Made by a program: the position numbers and the translations under genes. 64,000 nucleotides of DNA from Synergistaceae bacterium. GTDB taxonomy: Bacteria; Synergistota; Synergistia; Synergistales; Aminobacteriaceae. Position 1 is the first letter of the stretch. The number at the start of each line of letters is the position of its first letter. The stretch is from contig JAHDKT010000029.1 of the NCBI GenBank assembly GCA_018436725.1, positions 1-64,000 of the forward strand, in the 5' to 3' direction. Positions 9,807 to 40,854 of the stretch are shown here, piece after piece. Below the pieces are notes generated by a model, which did no database searches, was not told where the DNA came from, and was given only the letters and a program-made list of their open reading frames with translations.

Positions 9807-9882
9807 GCCGACTTAGCTCAGCAGGTAGAGCACATCCATGGTAAGGATGGGGTCTCCGGTTCAAGTCCGGAAGTCGGCTCCA
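9807..9882 (+). tRNA. tRNA-Thr (GGT)
   Basis: Acceptor stem GCCGACT/AGTCGGC, anticodon loop ATGGTAA (anticodon GGT), T arm GGTTCAAGTCC and encoded CCA. It is the last chromosomal gene before prophage DNA, so its 3' end is a plausible integration target. Confidence 0.95.
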
Positions 9883-23320: not shown

Positions 23321-23722
23321 ATGAAATGCCACGAACTGGTCCGCGTCCTCTCGGAGCGGAAGGTAACGCTTTCGCTCAGGGGAGACGGGAAGGTGAAGGC
23401 GACGCCTCCGGAAGAGGCCGTCTCCCTCGTCGAGGATATGAAGCGGTACAGGCCGGTGATGCTGGCTCTCGCCGCGGGAACGCACAAGGACGAATCCTTC
23501 CGGCGGGCGGTCAGGAAAATCCGAATCGCCTGTCCGGAGCTGCTGAACGACGGACGGTGCCACGGGTGCATCGAATGCGCGGAGTGGTCGCCCGTCTGGG
23601 TGGACGGAGAAGGCCCGTCGGGAATATGCGTCGCCACTCCGGAAACCGGTGCGGCGAAGAAGATGCTCGGCGGCGAGAAGGGCAAGTCTGAGAAAAACAA
23701 GAGAAAAACGAACGGAGGTTGA
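23321..23722 (+). CDS. Hypothetical cysteine-containing phage protein, 133 aa
   Basis: N-terminal helix and beta pair (LVRVLSERKVTLSLRGDGKV) resembling the small TubC-like docking pattern, a central helix, then a CxxC-like set (GRCHGCIECAEW) and a lysine-rich tail. The ribosome site is weak. Located between helicase genes; role unknown. Confidence 0.6.
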   Translation: MKCHELVRVLSERKVTLSLRGDGKVKATPPEEAVSLVEDMKRYRPVMLALAAGTHKDESFRRAVRKIRIACPELLNDGRCHGCIECAEWSPVWVDGEGPSGICVATPETGAAKKMLGGEKGKSEKNKRKTNGG

Positions 23723-23726
23723 GCGA

Positions 23727-26471
23727 ATGATCGAGCCGAGACCGTACCAGAAGGAGGCGGTGCAGGCGATTCTCGACGCCCGAAAGCGAGGCGTCGCAAG
23801 GCAGCTGGTGGTGCTCCCTACCGGATGCCACGAAGCCGGAACGCAAATACTCATGCGCGACGGAACGATGAAGGCTGTTGAAGATGTCGCGGTCGGCGAC
23901 CAGCTCATGGGGCCGGATTCTACGCCCCGCAATGTGCTTCGCCTGATTCGAGGCGTCGGTTCAATGTACAAGGTGATTCCGACTAAGGGGGAACCCTTCG
24001 TCGTGAACGAGGATCACATTCTCAGCCTGGAAAAGACGAACGAAAGGGCCGATCCGAAGCGGATTTACCCATGCACGAAAAGAGGATTTGTGAATATCTC
24101 CGTCCGCGAGTATTTGGGAAAAAGCGCGACGTTCAAGCACATGCACAAGCTCTATCGGCGGGGCGTCGAGTTTCCGGAACGCGAAGAGGCGCTTTATCTT
24201 GCTCCGTATTTTCTCGGGGTGCTTCTTGGAGACGGATGTTTTGCAAACGGATGCCTGATGGTGACGACGCCGGATGACGAGATTGTCGAGGAGTGCTTTG
24301 CCCAGGCGTTGAACCACGATCTGGAAATTCGCGTTGAGGAAATGTTGGGCAACGAGGCGAAAAACTACCACTTCGTCCCGCCGGAGAGACGTCGAGCGAA
24401 GAAGCGCAGCAACGAGATTCGAGAAGCGCTCAGATCGATGGGGCTTCTTGGGCTGACGTGCTCGGATAAATTCGTCCCGGAAAGGTACAAGCTGGCCGGA
24501 AAAGAGGAGCGGTTTCAAGTTCTGGCCGGGCTTTTGGATACCGACGGCACGCTATGCAACAACGTTTTCGAATTCAGCTCGAAGTCGCTCAGGCTTGCTG
24601 AAGACGTTGTCTTTTTAGCGCGCAGTCTCGGATTGGCTGCTTATCGCAGCGTAAAGATCGTGAAGGACGTTGAGTACCAGAGAGTGAATATCTCCGGAGA
24701 GATTTCCGATATACCCACTCGTATCGAACGGAAAAGAGCGGCGCTCAGACAACAAAAGAAAAGCATCCTCGTTTCCGGGTTCCGGGTCGAACCCGTGGGG
24801 ACGGGGGAATATTTCGGGTTTGAGCTGGACGGCGACAGGCTCTATCTGATGGGCGATTTCACGGTAACGCACAACTCGGGAAAAACGATTTGTTTTGGGA
24901 TGCTGGCGAAAGCGCTCGACGTGCCCACGATCGTACTGGCGCACAGAGAGGAGCTGTTGAACCAGGCAAAGGCGAAGATTCGGATGGTCTGGCCGGAGGG
25001 AGACGTCGGTATTTTGCAGGCGGATCGCCTTGAGGGGTTGTCGTCCCGGGTTTGCGTCGCTTCGGTGCAGACGGCGATTACGGAGCGGCGTCTCGACGCC
25101 CTGAGAGAGAAGAGCTTCAGGCTGATGGTGGTTGACGAGGCGCATCACGCGACGGCGGAGAGCTACATGCGCCTTATGGGCGAACTCGGATTCCTTGCAG
25201 ACGATCCGGAGAAGCTGCTTGTCGGCGTGACGGCCACTGGATACCGGGGAGACGGGGTAGCCCTGAGCGAAGCGTTTCAGGAGGTCGTGTTCGAGCGCTC
25301 CATCATGACGATGATCCGGGCGGAATATCTCTGTGACGCGAAGGGGATCTCCGTTTCGACGAAGGCGGACCTGTCGCAGGTGCATACGAGGGCCGGAGAC
25401 TTCGCGCTAAACGAGCTTTCGGACGTCATCGACATTCCGGAGAGAAACGATCTGGTCGCCAGAAGCTACGTGGAACACGCGAGCGCCAGGAAGGGCGTTG
25501 TGTTCTGCTGCGATGTGAAACACAGCATGCACATGGCGGAATCTCTGCGAAACCACGGGGTGAAGGCCGAGGCCGTCTACGGGGACATGGACAGGGACGA
25601 ACGGCGAGTAACGCTCGAGAGGTTCGACACCGGGCCTCTGGATGTGCTGACGAACTGCAACGTGCTGACGGAGGGGTGGGACGCCCCCGCAACCTCGGCG
25701 ATCCTGCTGGCCCGACCGACGAAGAGCCCGGTGCTCTACACGCAGATGGTCGGGCGGGGTCTCCGGAGGGCGCCGATGAAAACGGACTGCCTTGTGATGG
25801 ACTTCGTCGACACGGCCGGTCGGCATTCCTTGTGCAGCCTTGCGACACTGGCGGGAAACCCGCGCGTTGTCCCGAAGAAGGGGGAAACTCTCAGCGAGGC
25901 GTACGACAGGGTGGAGCGCGAAGAAGAGCAGGCGGAGCGTGTTGTGAAGCTCAAGCCGAAGACGGCGGAGTTCGAACTCTTCGAGAAGTCGAAGTTCATC
26001 TGGTCGGCCGTCGGGGAACATTTCAAGCTCTCCATGGGAAAGAATCACGACCTGTTCGCGAAGAGGGTGTCCGGCGGATACGTTCCATTGGAGTTCCCGC
26101 CGGAAGGGGACGTGATTCATCTTTCCGAGGATCCCCTTCCGCTGGGCTACGCGATGGGCGTGTGCGAAGACCATTGCAGGCAGTACGGGCGGTCTTCGAT
26201 CGCGATGAAAAATGCGCCGTGGCGGAAAAACAAGGCCACGGAGAAGCAGATCGACACGTTGAAGCGTCTCGGAGTGCCTCACGATCCCGATATCACCGCG
26301 GGCGAGGCGTCGGCGTTGTTGCAGCAAAAGCTGGACGAGCCCGCGACGAGCAAACAGAAGTACACCATCAGGAAAAACGGACTGCACCCTACTCCGGACG
26401 TGCTGACGAAAGCGCATGCGTCCAGGCTGATAGGGCAGTGGGCGAAGGAGAGAAAAGGGGTGGCGGTATGA
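23727..26471 (+). CDS. SF2 DEAH-box helicase interrupted by an intein
   Basis: Precursor of 914 aa; the mature helicase would be 564 aa. N-terminal extein has the Q-like region (PRPYQKEAVQAI) and VVLPTG; after the intein the Walker A resumes as SGKT. Later motifs are DEAHH (motif II), SVQTA (Ib region), the C-terminal domain with VFCCDVKHS and QMVGRGLRR (motif VI). It unwinds DNA or RNA in phage replication or repair. The intein occupies the nucleotide-binding loop, so helicase activity needs splicing. ATG at 23727 is chosen; the resolvase start overlaps its stop. Confidence 0.92.
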   Translation: MIEPRPYQKEAVQAILDARKRGVARQLVVLPTGCHEAGTQILMRDGTMKAVEDVAVGDQLMGPDSTPRNVLRLIRGVGSMYKVIPTKGEPFVVNEDHILSLEKTNERADPKRIYPCTKRGFVNISVREYLGKSATFKHMHKLYRRGVEFPEREEALYLAPYFLGVLLGDGCFANGCLMVTTPDDEIVEECFAQALNHDLEIRVEEMLGNEAKNYHFVPPERRRAKKRSNEIREALRSMGLLGLTCSDKFVPERYKLAGKEERFQVLAGLLDTDGTLCNNVFEFSSKSLRLAEDVVFLARSLGLAAYRSVKIVKDVEYQRVNISGEISDIPTRIERKRAALRQQKKSILVSGFRVEPVGTGEYFGFELDGDRLYLMGDFTVTHNSGKTICFGMLAKALDVPTIVLAHREELLNQAKAKIRMVWPEGDVGILQADRLEGLSSRVCVASVQTAITERRLDALREKSFRLMVVDEAHHATAESYMRLMGELGFLADDPEKLLVGVTATGYRGDGVALSEAFQEVVFERSIMTMIRAEYLCDAKGISVSTKADLSQVHTRAGDFALNELSDVIDIPERNDLVARSYVEHASARKGVVFCCDVKHSMHMAESLRNHGVKAEAVYGDMDRDERRVTLERFDTGPLDVLTNCNVLTEGWDAPATSAILLARPTKSPVLYTQMVGRGLRRAPMKTDCLVMDFVDTAGRHSLCSLATLAGNPRVVPKKGETLSEAYDRVEREEEQAERVVKLKPKTAEFELFEKSKFIWSAVGEHFKLSMGKNHDLFAKRVSGGYVPLEFPPEGDVIHLSEDPLPLGYAMGVCEDHCRQYGRSSIAMKNAPWRKNKATEKQIDTLKRLGVPHDPDITAGEASALLQQKLDEPATSKQKYTIRKNGLHPTPDVLTKAHASRLIGQWAKERKGVAV
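23826..24875 (+). mobile_element. Intein with LAGLIDADG homing endonuclease, in the helicase Walker A loop
   Basis: 350 codons in frame. It begins with Cys1 (CHEAGTQILMRDG), has block B-like NEDHIL, ends GDFTVTHN, and the +1 extein residue is Ser, all correct for splicing. The penultimate His and terminal Asn are present. Two dodecapeptides of a LAGLIDADG nuclease are clear: YFLGVLLGDG at intein residues 128-137 and VLAGLLDTDG at 232-241, both with acidic catalytic residues. The insertion point PTG/SGKT is a known favoured intein site in P-loop NTPases. Confidence 0.93.
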
Positions 26472-34612: not shown

Positions 34613-34696
34613 AAATCAGAGGTAGTATTTCTCGTGTTGCGCCCTTACGGGTATCAGAGGATAAAGGAACAATAGCACGTCGGGGGAGTGATGTCA

Positions 34697-35707
34697 ATGG
34701 GCGATTTGAAAAATATCGAACTTTCTCTTCACGCGGCATGTCCCGCAGCGTGGCGCGAAGCGGAGGGGATGCGAGCCAAGAAGGGAAGAGCGCTGCCACA
34801 TTGGAGCAGGTGGTGTTACCTCCCGCTTGCGGGGTGGATCGCGATCGTCTCCAGGGGCTGCGACATGTCGCAGGTCTCCGTGGAGCCCACGCAGGCGGCC
34901 GCACTCTTCGCGGCAATCGGATCATGGCGTATCGGGCGTGGAATATACCGTTTCGACGAAACTTTGTTTCAGGAGCTTATCTCCACACCGATGGAAGGGA
35001 ACATCCCTTGCGACGTGATCTTTCGTCTACCCGAGTGGTGCGTCTATCTGGAGACTGGGCCGCTCGGGTTCCCCGGGGTATTCGTCCACCTGGAGGAGGA
35101 CGCGAACAACGGGGAGAGGGAGCTGCGATTCCTTTTCCACGAGCCCGAAGGGGACCTTATCCCCGCCGTCGTTCATCTGGGAGACTATTCGCTCGCCGAG
35201 GGCGTGCGTCGCTCCGTGGAGATGGTCAAGCTCAACATGTCGAAACAGGGATTGCCCTATTCGTCCGAGCGAATGGCGTTGGACGCCGCGGGAATCATGA
35301 ACAAGGTGGGAAGCGTTATGCCGCTCGTGCTCTACATCTGCTCCGCAAACTCGGAGGTCAGGCGGCGCGAAAATGACGCGCAGCCTACGCGCAGGAAACC
35401 AAAGGGCAAGGCTGCAAAATTCGCCGTCTCTCCCACAACATGGGAGGTGGGGTACAGGATCGGCGCCGCCATCCGCGCAGGGCGATCGAAGGAAGAGCAA
35501 GGGGAATCGTCTGAGTCGCAGTATCCGGGGGTAGGTATACCAAAGCGTCCGCACGTGCGAAGGGCGCACTGGCACGGGTACTGGACGGGACCGCGCGACG
35601 GGAAGCGCCTCTTCTCGCTGAAGTGGCTACCGCCCATTCCCGTAAACATCGACACGGACGAAGACGGCCCGATGGTCATACATCCAGTAGAGGAGGAGCA
35701 ATCATGA
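34697..35707 (+). CDS. AcrVA2-like anti-CRISPR candidate
   Basis: Protein of 336 aa that resembles the AcrVA2 family over its length: GSWRIGRGIYRFDE and LPEWCVYLETG in the N-terminal half, and a signature RPHVRRAHWHGYW near residue 284, followed by a beta-strand end (FSLKWLPPIPVNID). Characterised AcrVA2 of Moraxella phage lowers Cas12a production by acting on its nascent chain and mRNA. Homologues occur in many mobile elements, also where Cas12a is unknown, so the target here is open. ATG at 34697 is 8 bases after GGGGGAG; GTG 34688 and ATG 34691 are alternatives. Followed directly by a partner-like gene. Confidence 0.78.
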   Translation: MGDLKNIELSLHAACPAAWREAEGMRAKKGRALPHWSRWCYLPLAGWIAIVSRGCDMSQVSVEPTQAAALFAAIGSWRIGRGIYRFDETLFQELISTPMEGNIPCDVIFRLPEWCVYLETGPLGFPGVFVHLEEDANNGERELRFLFHEPEGDLIPAVVHLGDYSLAEGVRRSVEMVKLNMSKQGLPYSSERMALDAAGIMNKVGSVMPLVLYICSANSEVRRRENDAQPTRRKPKGKAAKFAVSPTTWEVGYRIGAAIRAGRSKEEQGESSESQYPGVGIPKRPHVRRAHWHGYWTGPRDGKRLFSLKWLPPIPVNIDTDEDGPMVIHPVEEEQS

Positions 35708-36618: not shown

Positions 36619-36644
36619 GAGGGGCCGTTGGCCCCTCTTTTTTT
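36619..36644 (+). terminator. Strong terminator closing the accessory cassette
   Basis: GAGGGGCC/GGCCCCTC, three-base loop, seven T residues. Confidence 0.87.
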
Positions 36645-36681: not shown

Positions 36682-38136
36682 ATGTTTCAGGGAACGATCC
36701 CGAGCAATGTTCAAATGATGCTTGGAGAGATAGTTGGCAGTTGGAACGCCAGCGATATTTACGTGGGATGCTCTGGTAATTTTACCGTCGAGCGCGTGTT
36801 GCATAACCACGCGAAGGCGAGGTTGCACGGAAACGACGTGACGGCGTACTCGTGTCTTATAGGCGATTACCTTGCGGGGAATGAATTGGGCGCGAGGGTT
36901 AACCCAAAGTACGACGGCCCGATGTCCTTTGTCGAGAAGTACATAACCGACGACGCTTCCGTAATCGCGGTAACGTTAATTCTCTCCAAGCTCGCGGATG
37001 CGCTGAAGTCAAAGAAAAGGAACGCGTATTACGAAAGACTGATCCAAGCGTATAAGGATCAGTGGGAAACCATCTTCGCCTCGCAGTATAACTTGGTGCT
37101 TGCGTTGCCAAAGATGCTGACGAGCTTCTGCCGGGGCGACGTTTGCGAATGGGTGAAGGGGCTCGACAAGAGTCAGGGGTTTATCTGTCACCCCCCCTTT
37201 TACAAGGGTGGTTACGAAAAAATGTTCGCGGCGATAGAGGACGTAATCGCGTGGGCTCCACCAGAGTACGAAATGATCGACCAGGAAAAAATTCATGCGC
37301 TTTTCGAGGAGGCGATGGGTTTCAGGCATTTTCTATTCGTAATAAACAAAGAAATGCCAGAACTCAAAAAAAACCTCATAGGATTAGCACAGACGACCAA
37401 CAGGGGGACGCCGTTATATGTCTATGCGAACCACGACCGGTCGAGGATTGTCATGCCGTCGCAGAAAGCCACAACGCCAGCAATAGCGAGGTTAGGGCAA
37501 AATGACGACGTTGGAGAAACAATCTCCTTGGTAAAGCTGCAATCGGCAGAATTCCAAGGCTTGCGGTCTCAATATCTAAACCCGCACATCAAACCGGCGA
37601 GCGAGTCTTTGGCACTGGGGGTTGTGGTAGATAAAAAACTTGTGGGAGCCTTCGCCGTATCCGTAGCCCCAACAATGGGAAATTTCGATAAACACGTAAG
37701 CACGCCGACCGTCTACCTCTTGAGCGATTTTCCCGTCGCCCCATCCAAGTACAAGAGGCTTGCAAAGCTTGTGCTCTACGCGGCGCTGAGCAAAGAGTCG
37801 AAACTGATAATGGAGATGCTTTCGAACAGGAGAGCAAGAACGCTCATTACGACAGCGTTTTCAAAGAAGCCCGTGTCAATGAAGTACCGCGGGCTTTTTG
37901 ATCTCGTCTCAAAAAAGGAGCTTGACGGTGTGGATGAGAATGAAACGGACATGTCGAAAATCTACTACGGGTCAGGGTTCCAGCTGAACTACGCGGCCCC
38001 CCTGGGTGCATGGACGCTCCAAGAGGGACTGGCGCTCTGGAAAAAGAAGTGCTCGCAGGTTGAGCAAAAAGAGGAGGTGTGTGAGGTTGGACGTCCACGT
38101 GATGGAGATAGACCCGCGGGAGCTCCGATTACTTGA
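36682..38136 (+). CDS. Fused adenine-methyltransferase-like and GNAT (Mom-like) protein, putative anti-restriction DNA modification
   Basis: Protein of 484 aa. N-terminal half looks like an adenine methyltransferase fold: a glycine-containing YVGCSGNFTVER motif at 27-37 and HPPFYKGGYE at 170-179 in the place of the catalytic D/N-PP-Y/F motif (His replaces Asp/Asn). The C-terminal half (about 300-440) looks like a GNAT acyltransferase of the Mom kind, with LALGVVVDKKLVGAFAVSV and RARTLITTAFSKKP then SMKYRG. Similar phage proteins are annotated as anti-restriction adenine methyltransferases. It may modify adenines to block host nucleases. The ParB-like gene overlaps its end by 50 bases. Confidence 0.68.
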   Translation: MFQGTIPSNVQMMLGEIVGSWNASDIYVGCSGNFTVERVLHNHAKARLHGNDVTAYSCLIGDYLAGNELGARVNPKYDGPMSFVEKYITDDASVIAVTLILSKLADALKSKKRNAYYERLIQAYKDQWETIFASQYNLVLALPKMLTSFCRGDVCEWVKGLDKSQGFICHPPFYKGGYEKMFAAIEDVIAWAPPEYEMIDQEKIHALFEEAMGFRHFLFVINKEMPELKKNLIGLAQTTNRGTPLYVYANHDRSRIVMPSQKATTPAIARLGQNDDVGETISLVKLQSAEFQGLRSQYLNPHIKPASESLALGVVVDKKLVGAFAVSVAPTMGNFDKHVSTPTVYLLSDFPVAPSKYKRLAKLVLYAALSKESKLIMEMLSNRRARTLITTAFSKKPVSMKYRGLFDLVSKKELDGVDENETDMSKIYYGSGFQLNYAAPLGAWTLQEGLALWKKKCSQVEQKEEVCEVGRPRDGDRPAGAPIT

Positions 38137-38962
38137 GCTGAACGCCCGGTATATGAAGCATGAGGAGTTTGCGAGGTTGGTGGAGAATATCAGAAGGGAC
38201 GGAAGATTGACATCCGCCCCTTTTTGCTGCCGCGAGAAAGACGGAGGATACAAGGTTCTTTCCGGAAATCATAGAACGAGAGCCGCCATAGAAGCGGGAA
38301 TCGAAAAAATTACATGCTTGGCAACAGACGATGACCTTTCCGAGGATCAGCGGATAGCGATTCAGCTGTCGCACAATGCCATATCGGGGCACGACGACCT
38401 TGGGACGTTGAAGATCCTGTATGAGCAAGTGCTGGACATCGAGATGAAAAAATACAGCGGCCTTGACGATAAAACGCTGGAATTGCTTCAGCAGGTGGAC
38501 AGCGTGCGAATGGCGGAGGCCAACCTGAGATTCCTCACGTTAAGCGTGGTATTCCTCCCGGACGAGATAGAAGCTGCTCAAAAGACTCTAGACGATGCGA
38601 TAGGGTCGGCGAAGGGCGCTGATGTGAAGTGGCTTGCGAGAATGGCGGAGTATGACAAGTGGTTGGATTCCATAGAAGCGGCGGGCTCCTCTCAAGGGAT
38701 AAAAAATAACGCGACTGCGCTCAAAATAGTATTCGACATCTTTGAGGACAACATGCATCAGCTGTCTGACGCGTGGAGCGACGACGAAGACTCGAAGGCG
38801 TGGGTTCCGTTGGAGGCCGTGATAGGGAAGACAAAGATCCCGGAGGGGGCGGCGAAGGTAATAAAACGAGCAGTGGAAAAGATGATAGGGGAAAAGAGCC
38901 TCAATTCCTCGAACCGTTGGCAGGCGCTTGAATACTGGGCCGCTGACTATTTATCGAGGTAG
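38087..38962 (+). CDS. ParB/sulfiredoxin-fold nuclease-like protein
   Basis: Protein of 291 aa. ParB N-terminal core: EIDPRELRLLELNARYM, then VLSGNHRTRAAIEAGI with the conserved GxHR box, followed by a helical region (LSEDQRIAIQLSHNAISGHDD). Such domains can bind or cut DNA or hydrolyse nucleotides. Its overlap with the Mom-like gene suggests joint action in base modification. TTG at 38087 is 9 bases after GGAGG; ATG at 38102 is an alternative. The remainder is helical with no known domain. Confidence 0.75.
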   Translation: MDVHVMEIDPRELRLLELNARYMKHEEFARLVENIRRDGRLTSAPFCCREKDGGYKVLSGNHRTRAAIEAGIEKITCLATDDDLSEDQRIAIQLSHNAISGHDDLGTLKILYEQVLDIEMKKYSGLDDKTLELLQQVDSVRMAEANLRFLTLSVVFLPDEIEAAQKTLDDAIGSAKGADVKWLARMAEYDKWLDSIEAAGSSQGIKNNATALKIVFDIFEDNMHQLSDAWSDDEDSKAWVPLEAVIGKTKIPEGAAKVIKRAVEKMIGEKSLNSSNRWQALEYWAADYLSR

Positions 38963-38966
38963 CGCT

Positions 38967-39494
38967 ATGCCTGCGTTCGATAAATACAATTCGAAGTATC
39001 ACGATGACTGGGGGTGGTCCCTCGCCATTAAGGGATGCACTAATGAGGAGATTGCAACGGCATTCGGCATAAGCAAGCGGACTTTGATCAGATGGATGAA
39101 CCAGTACGAATCGCTAAAAAACGCCATCAACGAGGGGAAGGCTTCGGCTGACGCCAAGGTCGAAAGAAAGCTCTACGAGCGCGCTCTTGGCTATGAGGTG
39201 GAAGAGGAGCAGAAGGTTTTAAACGTAAGCAAAGAAGGTGGATCTCGGATAGGCAGAATCACCATAACGAAAAAACACGTGCCCCCAGACCCGACCTCTT
39301 GCATTTTTTGGTTAAAAAATCGACACCCTGATATCTGGCGCGACGTGCAGCGCATGGAGCACGGCGGCAAGGTGGAGGTGAGCCATGACCCGCAGATCGA
39401 GCGGCTCATCGAAGACCCCGAGGCGCAGCGCCTCCTCGCGGAACTCCACGCGAGAGCGACTTCAGGACACGTGGAAGGCGCTGGCGAGGCGTAG
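38967..39494 (+). CDS. Terminase small subunit
   Basis: DNA-recognition subunit of the packaging motor, 175 aa. N-terminal helix-turn-helix (AIKGCTNEEIATAFGISKRT, then LIRWMNQY), an oligomerisation helix region and a C-terminal tail that contacts the large subunit. Starts 4 bases after the ParB-like stop. The last 110 bases overlap the large subunit gene in another frame. Confidence 0.84.
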   Translation: MPAFDKYNSKYHDDWGWSLAIKGCTNEEIATAFGISKRTLIRWMNQYESLKNAINEGKASADAKVERKLYERALGYEVEEEQKVLNVSKEGGSRIGRITITKKHVPPDPTSCIFWLKNRHPDIWRDVQRMEHGGKVEVSHDPQIERLIEDPEAQRLLAELHARATSGHVEGAGEA

Positions 39495-40854
39495 GTTCTG
39501 GTTCTTCTGCCAGTACTCGCACTTCGGCAAGTGGCGTCTCGCTCCCCATCTGGAACTCCTCTGCTCCGAACTCGAAGAGGTCGAGGCCGGGCGACTTGAT
39601 CGGTTGATTCTGACTGTCCCTCCGCGACATGGCAAGTCTATGTGCGTCACGGAGACCTTTCCGGCCTGGTATCTGGGCCGCAATCCCGAGAAGCGCGTCA
39701 TCGAGGCGTCGTACAGCGACGATCTCGCCCGGACCTTCGGCGACAAGTGCCGCCGGAAGATCGAAACCTTTGGCCCGGAACTCTGGGGGCTGGAGATCGA
39801 CCGTCGGCGCGCGGACAAGTCCGACTGGGGGATCAAGGATCACAACGGCGGAATGGTCTCGGCGGGGATCGGCGGAGGAATCACGGGCAAAGGGGCCGAC
39901 CTGCTGATAATCGACGACCCGGTAAAGAACAGACAGGAAGCCGACTCGCAGACCTACCGCGACCGCGTCTGGTCGGAGTGGCAATCCACCCTTTCCACGC
40001 GGCTGCATCCGATGGCCGCGGTCGTCGTCGTCCTGACCCGATGGCACGAGGACGACCTTGCCGGAAGGCTGATCAAAGCGGAGCCGAACAGGTGGAAGCT
40101 GCTGAACCTCCCGGCTATCGCCGAGGAGAACGACCCGCTCGGACGTCCGATAGGCGCGGCGCTCTGGCCGGAGAGGTACGACGAGGCCGAGCTTGCACGG
40201 AAAAAGATTACGTCTGGATCGCGCGACTGGGAGGCGTTATATCAAGGGAGGCCGAGTCCGACGAAGGGATCCATCCTTCTCCGGGGGTGGTGGAGGGAAT
40301 ACCGCTTGCCTCCCGAGACGATGGTGAAAGGTATGGATCAGGTGATTCTGTCGTTCGACTGCGCCTTCAAGGACAAGGACACATCCGACTACGTCGTCGG
40401 TCAGGTGTGGTGCCGAAAGGGGCCGGACGCCTATCTGCTCGACCAGGTGCGCGGCCGGATGGACTTTCCCTCTACGCAGCGAGCGTTGAAGGCTCTGTCG
40501 GCCAAGTGGCCGATGGCGCGGGCGAAGCTCGTGGAGGATAAGGCGAACGGCACGGCGATCATAGCGAGCCTTCGCAAGGAGACGTCCGGCCTCATCCCAA
40601 TCGAGCCGGACGGCGGCAAGGTAGTCCGGGCGAACGCCGTGACCCCGTTCATCGAGGCGGGGAACGTCCATCTGCCCGAACCTCGCTTCGCTCCGTGGAT
40701 CGGCGACTTCATCGAGGAGTGCGCCGCGTTCCCGAACGGAGCGCACGACGACCAGGTGGACGCTATGACGCAGGCACTCTCCCATCTGCTGGGTAGGTGC
40801 AGAGGCGGAAAACCCGTAGCAGGCGGCGCCAGACAGGCGCACCTGCTTTTTTAA
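39385..40854 (+). CDS. Terminase large subunit
   Basis: Packaging ATPase-nuclease of 489 aa. Walker A PPRHGKS near residue 81, Walker B LLIIDDP near 173, C motif region VVVLTRWHEDD, and the RNase H-like nuclease with SFDCAFKDKDTSD near 327 and HDDQVDAM near 453. Start ATG follows GGTGGAGGTG inside the small-subunit gene, an unusually long but convincing overlap. Confidence 0.94.
   Translation: MTRRSSGSSKTPRRSASSRNSTRERLQDTWKALARRRFWFFCQYSHFGKWRLAPHLELLCSELEEVEAGRLDRLILTVPPRHGKSMCVTETFPAWYLGRNPEKRVIEASYSDDLARTFGDKCRRKIETFGPELWGLEIDRRRADKSDWGIKDHNGGMVSAGIGGGITGKGADLLIIDDPVKNRQEADSQTYRDRVWSEWQSTLSTRLHPMAAVVVVLTRWHEDDLAGRLIKAEPNRWKLLNLPAIAEENDPLGRPIGAALWPERYDEAELARKKITSGSRDWEALYQGRPSPTKGSILLRGWWREYRLPPETMVKGMDQVILSFDCAFKDKDTSDYVVGQVWCRKGPDAYLLDQVRGRMDFPSTQRALKALSAKWPMARAKLVEDKANGTAIIASLRKETSGLIPIEPDGGKVVRANAVTPFIEAGNVHLPEPRFAPWIGDFIEECAAFPNGAHDDQVDAMTQALSHLLGRCRGGKPVAGGARQAHLLF

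Follow-up and report, generated by a model that had tools for sequence, protein, structure and literature searches.

Introduction

What could be the function of a phage protein in which a DNA methyltransferase-like half without the customary catalytic residue is joined to a GNAT-like half, and whose gene runs into that of a ParB-like protein? The question is raised by a gene of the window analysed here, a stretch of 64,000 nucleotides that represents the start of a contig in a 4.78-Mb assembly, and is addressed below through the predicted structure of the protein, the residues conserved among its relatives and the genes that accompany it.

Genomic setting

The left part of the window is filled by chromosomal genes (a GGDEF regulator, TetR, an outer-membrane efflux protein and AcrB) and by a tRNA cluster ending at 9882, beyond which begins a phage genome encoding a repressor, a RecT-like protein, a helicase, terminase, capsid and tape-measure proteins; because this phage gene set follows the chromosome and the tRNA cluster, the genes in question (Table 1) can be placed inside a prophage. 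Furthermore, the fusion family was found in only 3 of the 188 genomes of the host's phylum, one of the three cases being a degraded remnant, and is therefore a rare accessory gene and not a host gene. In the same prophage, the N-terminal part of the helicase gene product (23649-26471) matches the homing-endonuclease Hint domain (6.5e-18) and LAGLIDADG, and the gene is predicted from these matches to carry an intein or an intein fragment. Positions 34688-35707, two genes before the DUF488 gene, encode a 339-aa protein of phage family phrog_6160 (2.4e-58).

Table 1. Features of the locus (window coordinates)
Feature	Position	Strand	Evidence and remarks
DUF488-family gene (DUF488-N3a-like), ~130 aa	36211..36603	+	phrog_2450 1.4e-16; PF22751 1.7e-4, below cut-off
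Intrinsic-terminator-like hairpin, GAGGGGCC-GTT-GGCCCCTC + T7	36619..36644	+	between DUF488 and fusion genes
Complete DAM-like/GNAT fusion gene, 484 aa, ATG start	36682..38136	+	phrog_7858 1.2e-80, residues 1-461
DAM-like methyltransferase-fold half, residues 1-268	36682..37485	+	PF22555; model and Foldseek (7m6b, E. coli Dam 2g1p); conservation
GNAT-fold half, residues 279-456	37516..38049	+	PF22559; GNAT-only model; Foldseek matches among GNATs, Mu Mom 8bv8 included
ParB-like gene, probably starting at GTG 38081 or TTG 38087; longest open frame from GTG 38006	38081..38962	+	phrog_7405 8.5e-71
Terminase small subunit	38928..39494	+	phrog_309 2.5e-46; directly downstream of ParB-like gene
Terminase large subunit	39385..40854	+	PF03237, PF17289, phrog_38 7e-127

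The two halves of the fusion protein

The initial annotation had described a 484-aa protein with a methyltransferase-like N-terminal half, its characteristic motif, the string HPPFYKGGYE with His at the position of the catalytic Asp/Asn, and a C-terminal half with GNAT-like features. All these elements are present in the ORF and both halves are recognized by Pfam above the curated cut-off of 27 bits in one and the same protein, PF22555 (DAM-like-phage1) matching residues 2-268 (E 5e-72, 243 bits) and PF22559 (GNAT-phage-like) residues 279-456 (E 3.8e-52, 177 bits). PHROG 7858 covers the whole fusion protein at 1.2e-80, so that this match is far above chance.

The DAM-like half displays motif I (GCSGNFTVE, within the region of residues 27-38, YVGCSGNFTVER), motif II with Asp52, Asp153 and motif IV (HPPFY), where His170, within CHPPFYKGGYE, occupies the first position of (D/N)PP(Y/F). 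The methyltransferase fold and the glycine-containing motif I of the amino-methyltransferases are thus present, whereas the D12/Dam motif (D/N/S)PP(Y/F/W) is replaced by HPPF. The GNAT half contains the conserved stretches YLLSDFPV, YKRLAKL, TTAF and PVSMKYRG; the CoA-loop consensus RxxGxG/A is not visible in the alignment.

An AlphaFold2 model of the fusion protein, built from 49 relatives, has a mean pLDDT of 89.1 and a pTM of 0.75. When searched at full length against the PDB with Foldseek it retrieves 7m6b "Mcbe1" (3.4e-5), which we take to be a DNA methyltransferase, then Mu Mom 8bv8 (4e-5), the best GNAT match of this search, and E. coli Dam 2g1p (2.6e-4). The GNAT half modelled alone (pLDDT 93.9) retrieves human Naa60 (9.9e-6), Mom (1.6e-5), RimI and further GNATs with similar scores. 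Thus, in the comparison of the two halves with Mom and D12 enzymes proposed as a check by the initial annotation, the methyltransferase and GNAT folds were both recovered but Mom scored no better than Naa60 or RimI: the resemblance to 8bv8 is real at both lengths without being specific and Mom, ranking third to fourth and not distinct, had to be abandoned as the nearest relative of the GNAT half. Membership of the Mom family by sequence is likewise ruled out, since the window protein has no match to Pfam Mom (PF25680) and the hhalign similarity to Mom (72-85% probability) is weak and reliable over only ~26 columns. On the predicted structures the GNAT fold itself is secure, and its closeness to Mom is compatible with the data, not demonstrated by them. 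No credible solved relative was found for the fusion or the ParB-like protein by profile search or for the DUF488 protein by single-sequence search.

Fold matches of the model in BFVD include a Salmonella phage Mom, the best being A0A8S5SJK3, a 695-aa phage "amidoligase enzyme" aligned over nearly the whole fusion protein (E 1.5e-24, 482 columns), which hints at the existence of fusions of amidoligase, DAM-like and GNAT domains. The GNAT half also matches phrog_2443, a family with an amidoligase link, at 1e-4. The amidoligase loci retrieved and scanned (16 further viral-contig loci being left out of the scan) were without fused domains, and the amidoligase connection is a lead.

Two clades and a constrained loop

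A maximum-likelihood tree of 87 fusion-family sequences separates, with 100/100 support, the clade of the window protein (clade 1, 51 sequences) from a very distant sister clade (clade 2, 36 sequences). The first position of (D/N)PP(Y/F) is Asn in all 36 members of clade 2; in clade 1 it is Phe in 39 sequences, Tyr in 10, Ser in one and His in the window protein. Since Asp or Asn occurs in none of the 51, the substitution at His170 represents a clade-wide change and not a quirk of this protein. Motif I differs as well, being GCSGNFT-like in clade 1 vs. EPC(A/S)G, i.e., D12-like, in clade 2.

Asp/Asn at this position is considered essential for amino-methylation. The earlier suggestion that the methyltransferase half may only place the base agrees with the disappearance of this residue from the whole of clade 1 while the cofactor-site motif, conserved in both clades, was retained; C-S-G-x-F-T is kept throughout the 49-row clade-1 alignment, and Gly32, Phe34, Asp52, Pro172, Leu363, Thr390, Arg403 and Tyr437 are invariant over the 87 sequences.

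The site around the substituted position stays under constraint. Intein-like insertions are found in two distant relatives (L071:7833-10124 and L079:7872-10061), in both cases immediately behind PP(F/T)Y. Both begin with Cys and end with HN before Ser/Thr; they were identified as inteins from these splice-junction residues, a LAGLIDADG-like segment and their clean removal with respect to close relatives, the Pfam insert domains being below cut-off. Inteins usually occupy conserved active sites of essential proteins and their location exactly at the PP(F/T)Y loop therefore argues that the loop is still constrained and probably functional.

A ParB-like partner

That the neighbouring gene encodes a ParB-type protein with a GNHR box is borne out by its phrog_7405 match, by weaker ParB-family matches (ParB_N 3.8e-5, just below cut-off; PF02195, 24.1 vs. 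a cut-off of 26.3) and by the box itself, which reads SGNHR (GxxR) and is accompanied by HNAISGHDD. Among 86 ParB-like sequences SG.HR and HN...G..D show little or no variation, and none at G87, H89, R90, H123 and N124. These two motifs correspond to nucleotide-binding boxes of the ParB-CTPase fold (PMC12704722), of which the window's ParB-like protein has both GxxR (Box II) and Box III. The overlap of 50 bases with the fusion gene previously reported holds for a start at TTG 38087 and depends on the start codon, becoming 56 bases from GTG 38081 and 131 with the longest frame; the homologues start near 38081-38087 and AGGAGG is located at 38072-38077.

The ParB-like gene lies directly downstream of the fusion gene, usually overlapping it, in nearly all of the ~140 loci. 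In clade 1 it comes after the fusion gene on the same strand in all but 2 of 90 loci, one of the two exceptions being cut off by the end of the contig, and in one further locus the distance is 1.2 kb; in clade 2 an overlap of 24-66 bases is found in nearly every locus whose contig continues. A survey of the ParB fold describes phage proteins in which it is joined to a DNA methyltransferase and an archaeal ParB-fold/DUF488-HTH fusion (PMC12704722). True Mom genes also adjoin ParB-like genes or lie one gene away from them in Microbacterium phage MenE and Arthrobacter phage BarretLemon (L091:3469-4621 and L098:2136-3561).

A third gene

The locus had been regarded as a two-gene pair; the unit comprises instead three genes, the DUF488 gene upstream having been missed. 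Its frame is open from 36136, but homology begins at ATG 36211, the probable real start. The residues C..E...CHR are present and Cys113, Cys124, His125 and Arg126 (long-frame window numbering) are invariant in the aligned DUF488 cluster; the match to DUF488-N3a (PF22751) reaches 22.3 bits against a cut-off of 27 and the gene is therefore classified as DUF488-like only. In a neighbour clustering of 80 viral-contig relatives and the named loci, the DUF488 cluster is common to 42 loci, only the fusion and ParB families being commoner. Searched by profile, the gene is found upstream on the same strand in 57 of 81 clade-1 loci, with 7 more too short to judge (among the 24 without it there, some carry it on the opposite strand or within the extended frame), and upstream in 46 of 53 clade-2 loci.

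A hairpin between the DUF488 and fusion genes is the only terminator-like site on the + strand, the overall number of such sites not exceeding that of shuffled sequences. Because of its location co-transcription is not assured, and the two genes may here give separate transcripts unless antiterminated.

Conservation and spread of the module

Among the 77 loci whose sequence extends far enough, at least 59, from both clades, have the large terminase gene starting 1.1-3.6 kb downstream of the fusion gene, and the order trio-then-terminase is conserved to the same extent. Jeon and several clade-1 loci have kept the trio with no terminase in the downstream flank.

The fusion-ParB pair, with which the DUF488 gene is usually associated as in the window, occurs in phages or prophages of mycobacteria, Gordonia, Microbacterium, Streptomyces, Peribacillus, Salmonella, Faecalibacterium and many uncultured hosts, with identities falling to ~20%. 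Cultured phages having members are Jeon, Clawz, Sting and ValentiniPuff, and the trio is intact in Gordonia phage Clawz and Mycobacterium phage Jeon. The latter two belong to clade 1 (aromatic-PP), Microbacterium phage ValentiniPuff to clade 2 (Asn-PP). One scan of genome contigs gave no confirmed relative. A known anti-phage defence system was considered and rejected, PADLOC having no model that matches the fusion or DUF488 proteins and only a marginal match (0.0099) of the ParB-like protein to a methyltransferase model.

Of the 53 clade-2 loci, 10 have a SAM synthetase gene close by on the upstream side, as does one clade-1 locus; in Faecalibacterium phage FP_Brigit (L003:3465-4643) and relatives it is ~3 kb upstream of the fusion gene. 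A PAPS-reductase-family gene (L005:5775-6719), of a family seen in 5 loci, directly precedes the fusion gene in a Streptomyces plasmid prophage, and a DUF5131 gene, weakly radical-SAM-like (L012:3380-4216), is found in the flanks of 7 relatives.

What may the module do?

If the window clade has lost a residue considered essential, why should the methyltransferase fold be retained? We give an even chance to the premise that the three genes constitute a late-acting phage module through which the phage's own DNA undergoes base modification prior to being packaged, each detail of the mechanism, taken by itself, falling short of that level. The DAM-like half, which retains a methyltransferase fold of the Rossmann type together with the cofactor-site motif and the base-pocket loop PP(F/T)Y, would in clade 1, without Asp/Asn, probably grip the DNA (and perhaps SAM) and present a flipped base. 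The GNAT half would be the likely group-transfer enzyme, i.e., the writer, working in a manner resembling that of Mu Mom without this implying Mom identity; the ParB-like protein, with its NTP-binding fold, would probably load the writer or move it along DNA, and the DUF488 protein, in which a Cys and the CHR string do not vary, would be a further enzyme alongside it. The complete picture is that of a DNA hypermodification machine: a methyltransferase fold that no longer transfers methyl groups would flip the base, possibly bind SAM and so serve the GNAT writer as a platform, a ParB-type NTPase clamp would do the loading, and a DUF488 cysteine enzyme would assist, a new base in virion DNA being the product. 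This picture is a tentative and rather doubtful one. Beyond the folds, the residue conservation, the trio and the terminase synteny that were observed, the substrate would be DNA, the labour would be divided as outlined and the product could protect from restriction; adenine may be the target and counter-defence the role. Counting against this reading are the results that Mom is not unique in the GNAT-only search, that the profile similarity is weak and that the CoA-loop consensus is not visible, together with the lack of an obvious role for DUF488 in base modification and the terminase link, which could mean a function in packaging or at DNA ends.

The latter possibility, a role in DNA-end processing or in support of packaging (e.g., around cos/pac cleavage), with the DUF488 protein acting on termini to which the other two bring it, is the main alternative by virtue of the terminase synteny, seen in both clades, and of the DNA-end processing that Burroughs and Aravind reportedly predicted in 2023 for DUF488-clade enzymes of viral conflict systems. 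However, the trio persists without terminase in the downstream flank of Jeon and several clade-1 loci, methyltransferase and GNAT folds indicate base chemistry, and Mom is also a late gene so that late-gene proximity does not discriminate; we regard this alternative as unlikely. Even less probable in our opinion is that the DAM-like half continues to work as a normal DNA methyltransferase, with the GNAT half as an accessory, an idea favoured by the invariant Asn and D12-like motif I of clade 2 and by the SAM synthetase genes near some members, but opposed by the Phe, Tyr, His or Ser of the window clade and by the equal conservation of the GNAT half. A similarly low probability is attached to a module directed at the host or at a superinfecting phage (protein or RNA acylation, exclusion by a ParB-like "nuclease") and not at phage DNA: host proteins are targets of phage GNATs such as Rac (PMC7824862), and phages and mobile elements are known to encode DNases with a ParB fold (PMC5512222), yet the PADLOC results give no support and both the late-gene position and the fusion to a DNA-methyltransferase fold favour DNA.

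Comparison with known systems

The family is not a new one, both domains being already named in Pfam: PF22555 and PF22559, like PHROG 7858, describe the same two domains over the full length of the window protein and far above cut-off, and the third gene weakly matches what is already a dedicated family, DUF488-N3a. Since Pfam has the two domains under descriptive names and this family besides, the kind is known by prediction. PF22555 and PF22559 presumably represent the phage systems of Burroughs and Aravind (2023, NAR Genom Bioinform, rhodanese-phosphatase superfamily). The literature searched yielded no paper naming these families and no experimental work on any fusion-family member.

Mom enzymes make N6-carbamoylmethyladenine in DNA. 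Mu Mom (PF25680, 8bv8) shares with the window protein the GNAT-type fold, the lack of an obvious CoA-loop consensus and, for some Mom genes, a ParB-like neighbour; on the other hand, the Mom motifs ELxRLW, SFAD and YQAxNF are not recognized in the window protein, the Mom proteins examined have no DAM-like half attached and DUF488 is absent from the Mom loci searched. The D12/Dam adenine methyltransferases resemble the fusion protein in fold (E. coli Dam), glycine motif I and PP loop, but the window clade lacks the catalytic Asp/Asn and has a GNAT half fused. Orphan phage ParB-CTPase-fold proteins (PMC12704722) have in common with the ParB-like protein the GxxR and HN..G.DD boxes, the phage setting and the link to methyltransferase domains, whereas the window's ParB-like protein has a long C-terminal region without Pfam match and no ParA neighbour was seen.

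New from this analysis are the split of the family into an Asn and a predominantly aromatic clade, the inteins and the terminase synteny. The clade split offers a natural test of whether a methyltransferase fold may become a base-presenting platform, and this broad, conserved and apparently DNA-acting module represents a good place to seek a new DNA base and a new form of restriction evasion.
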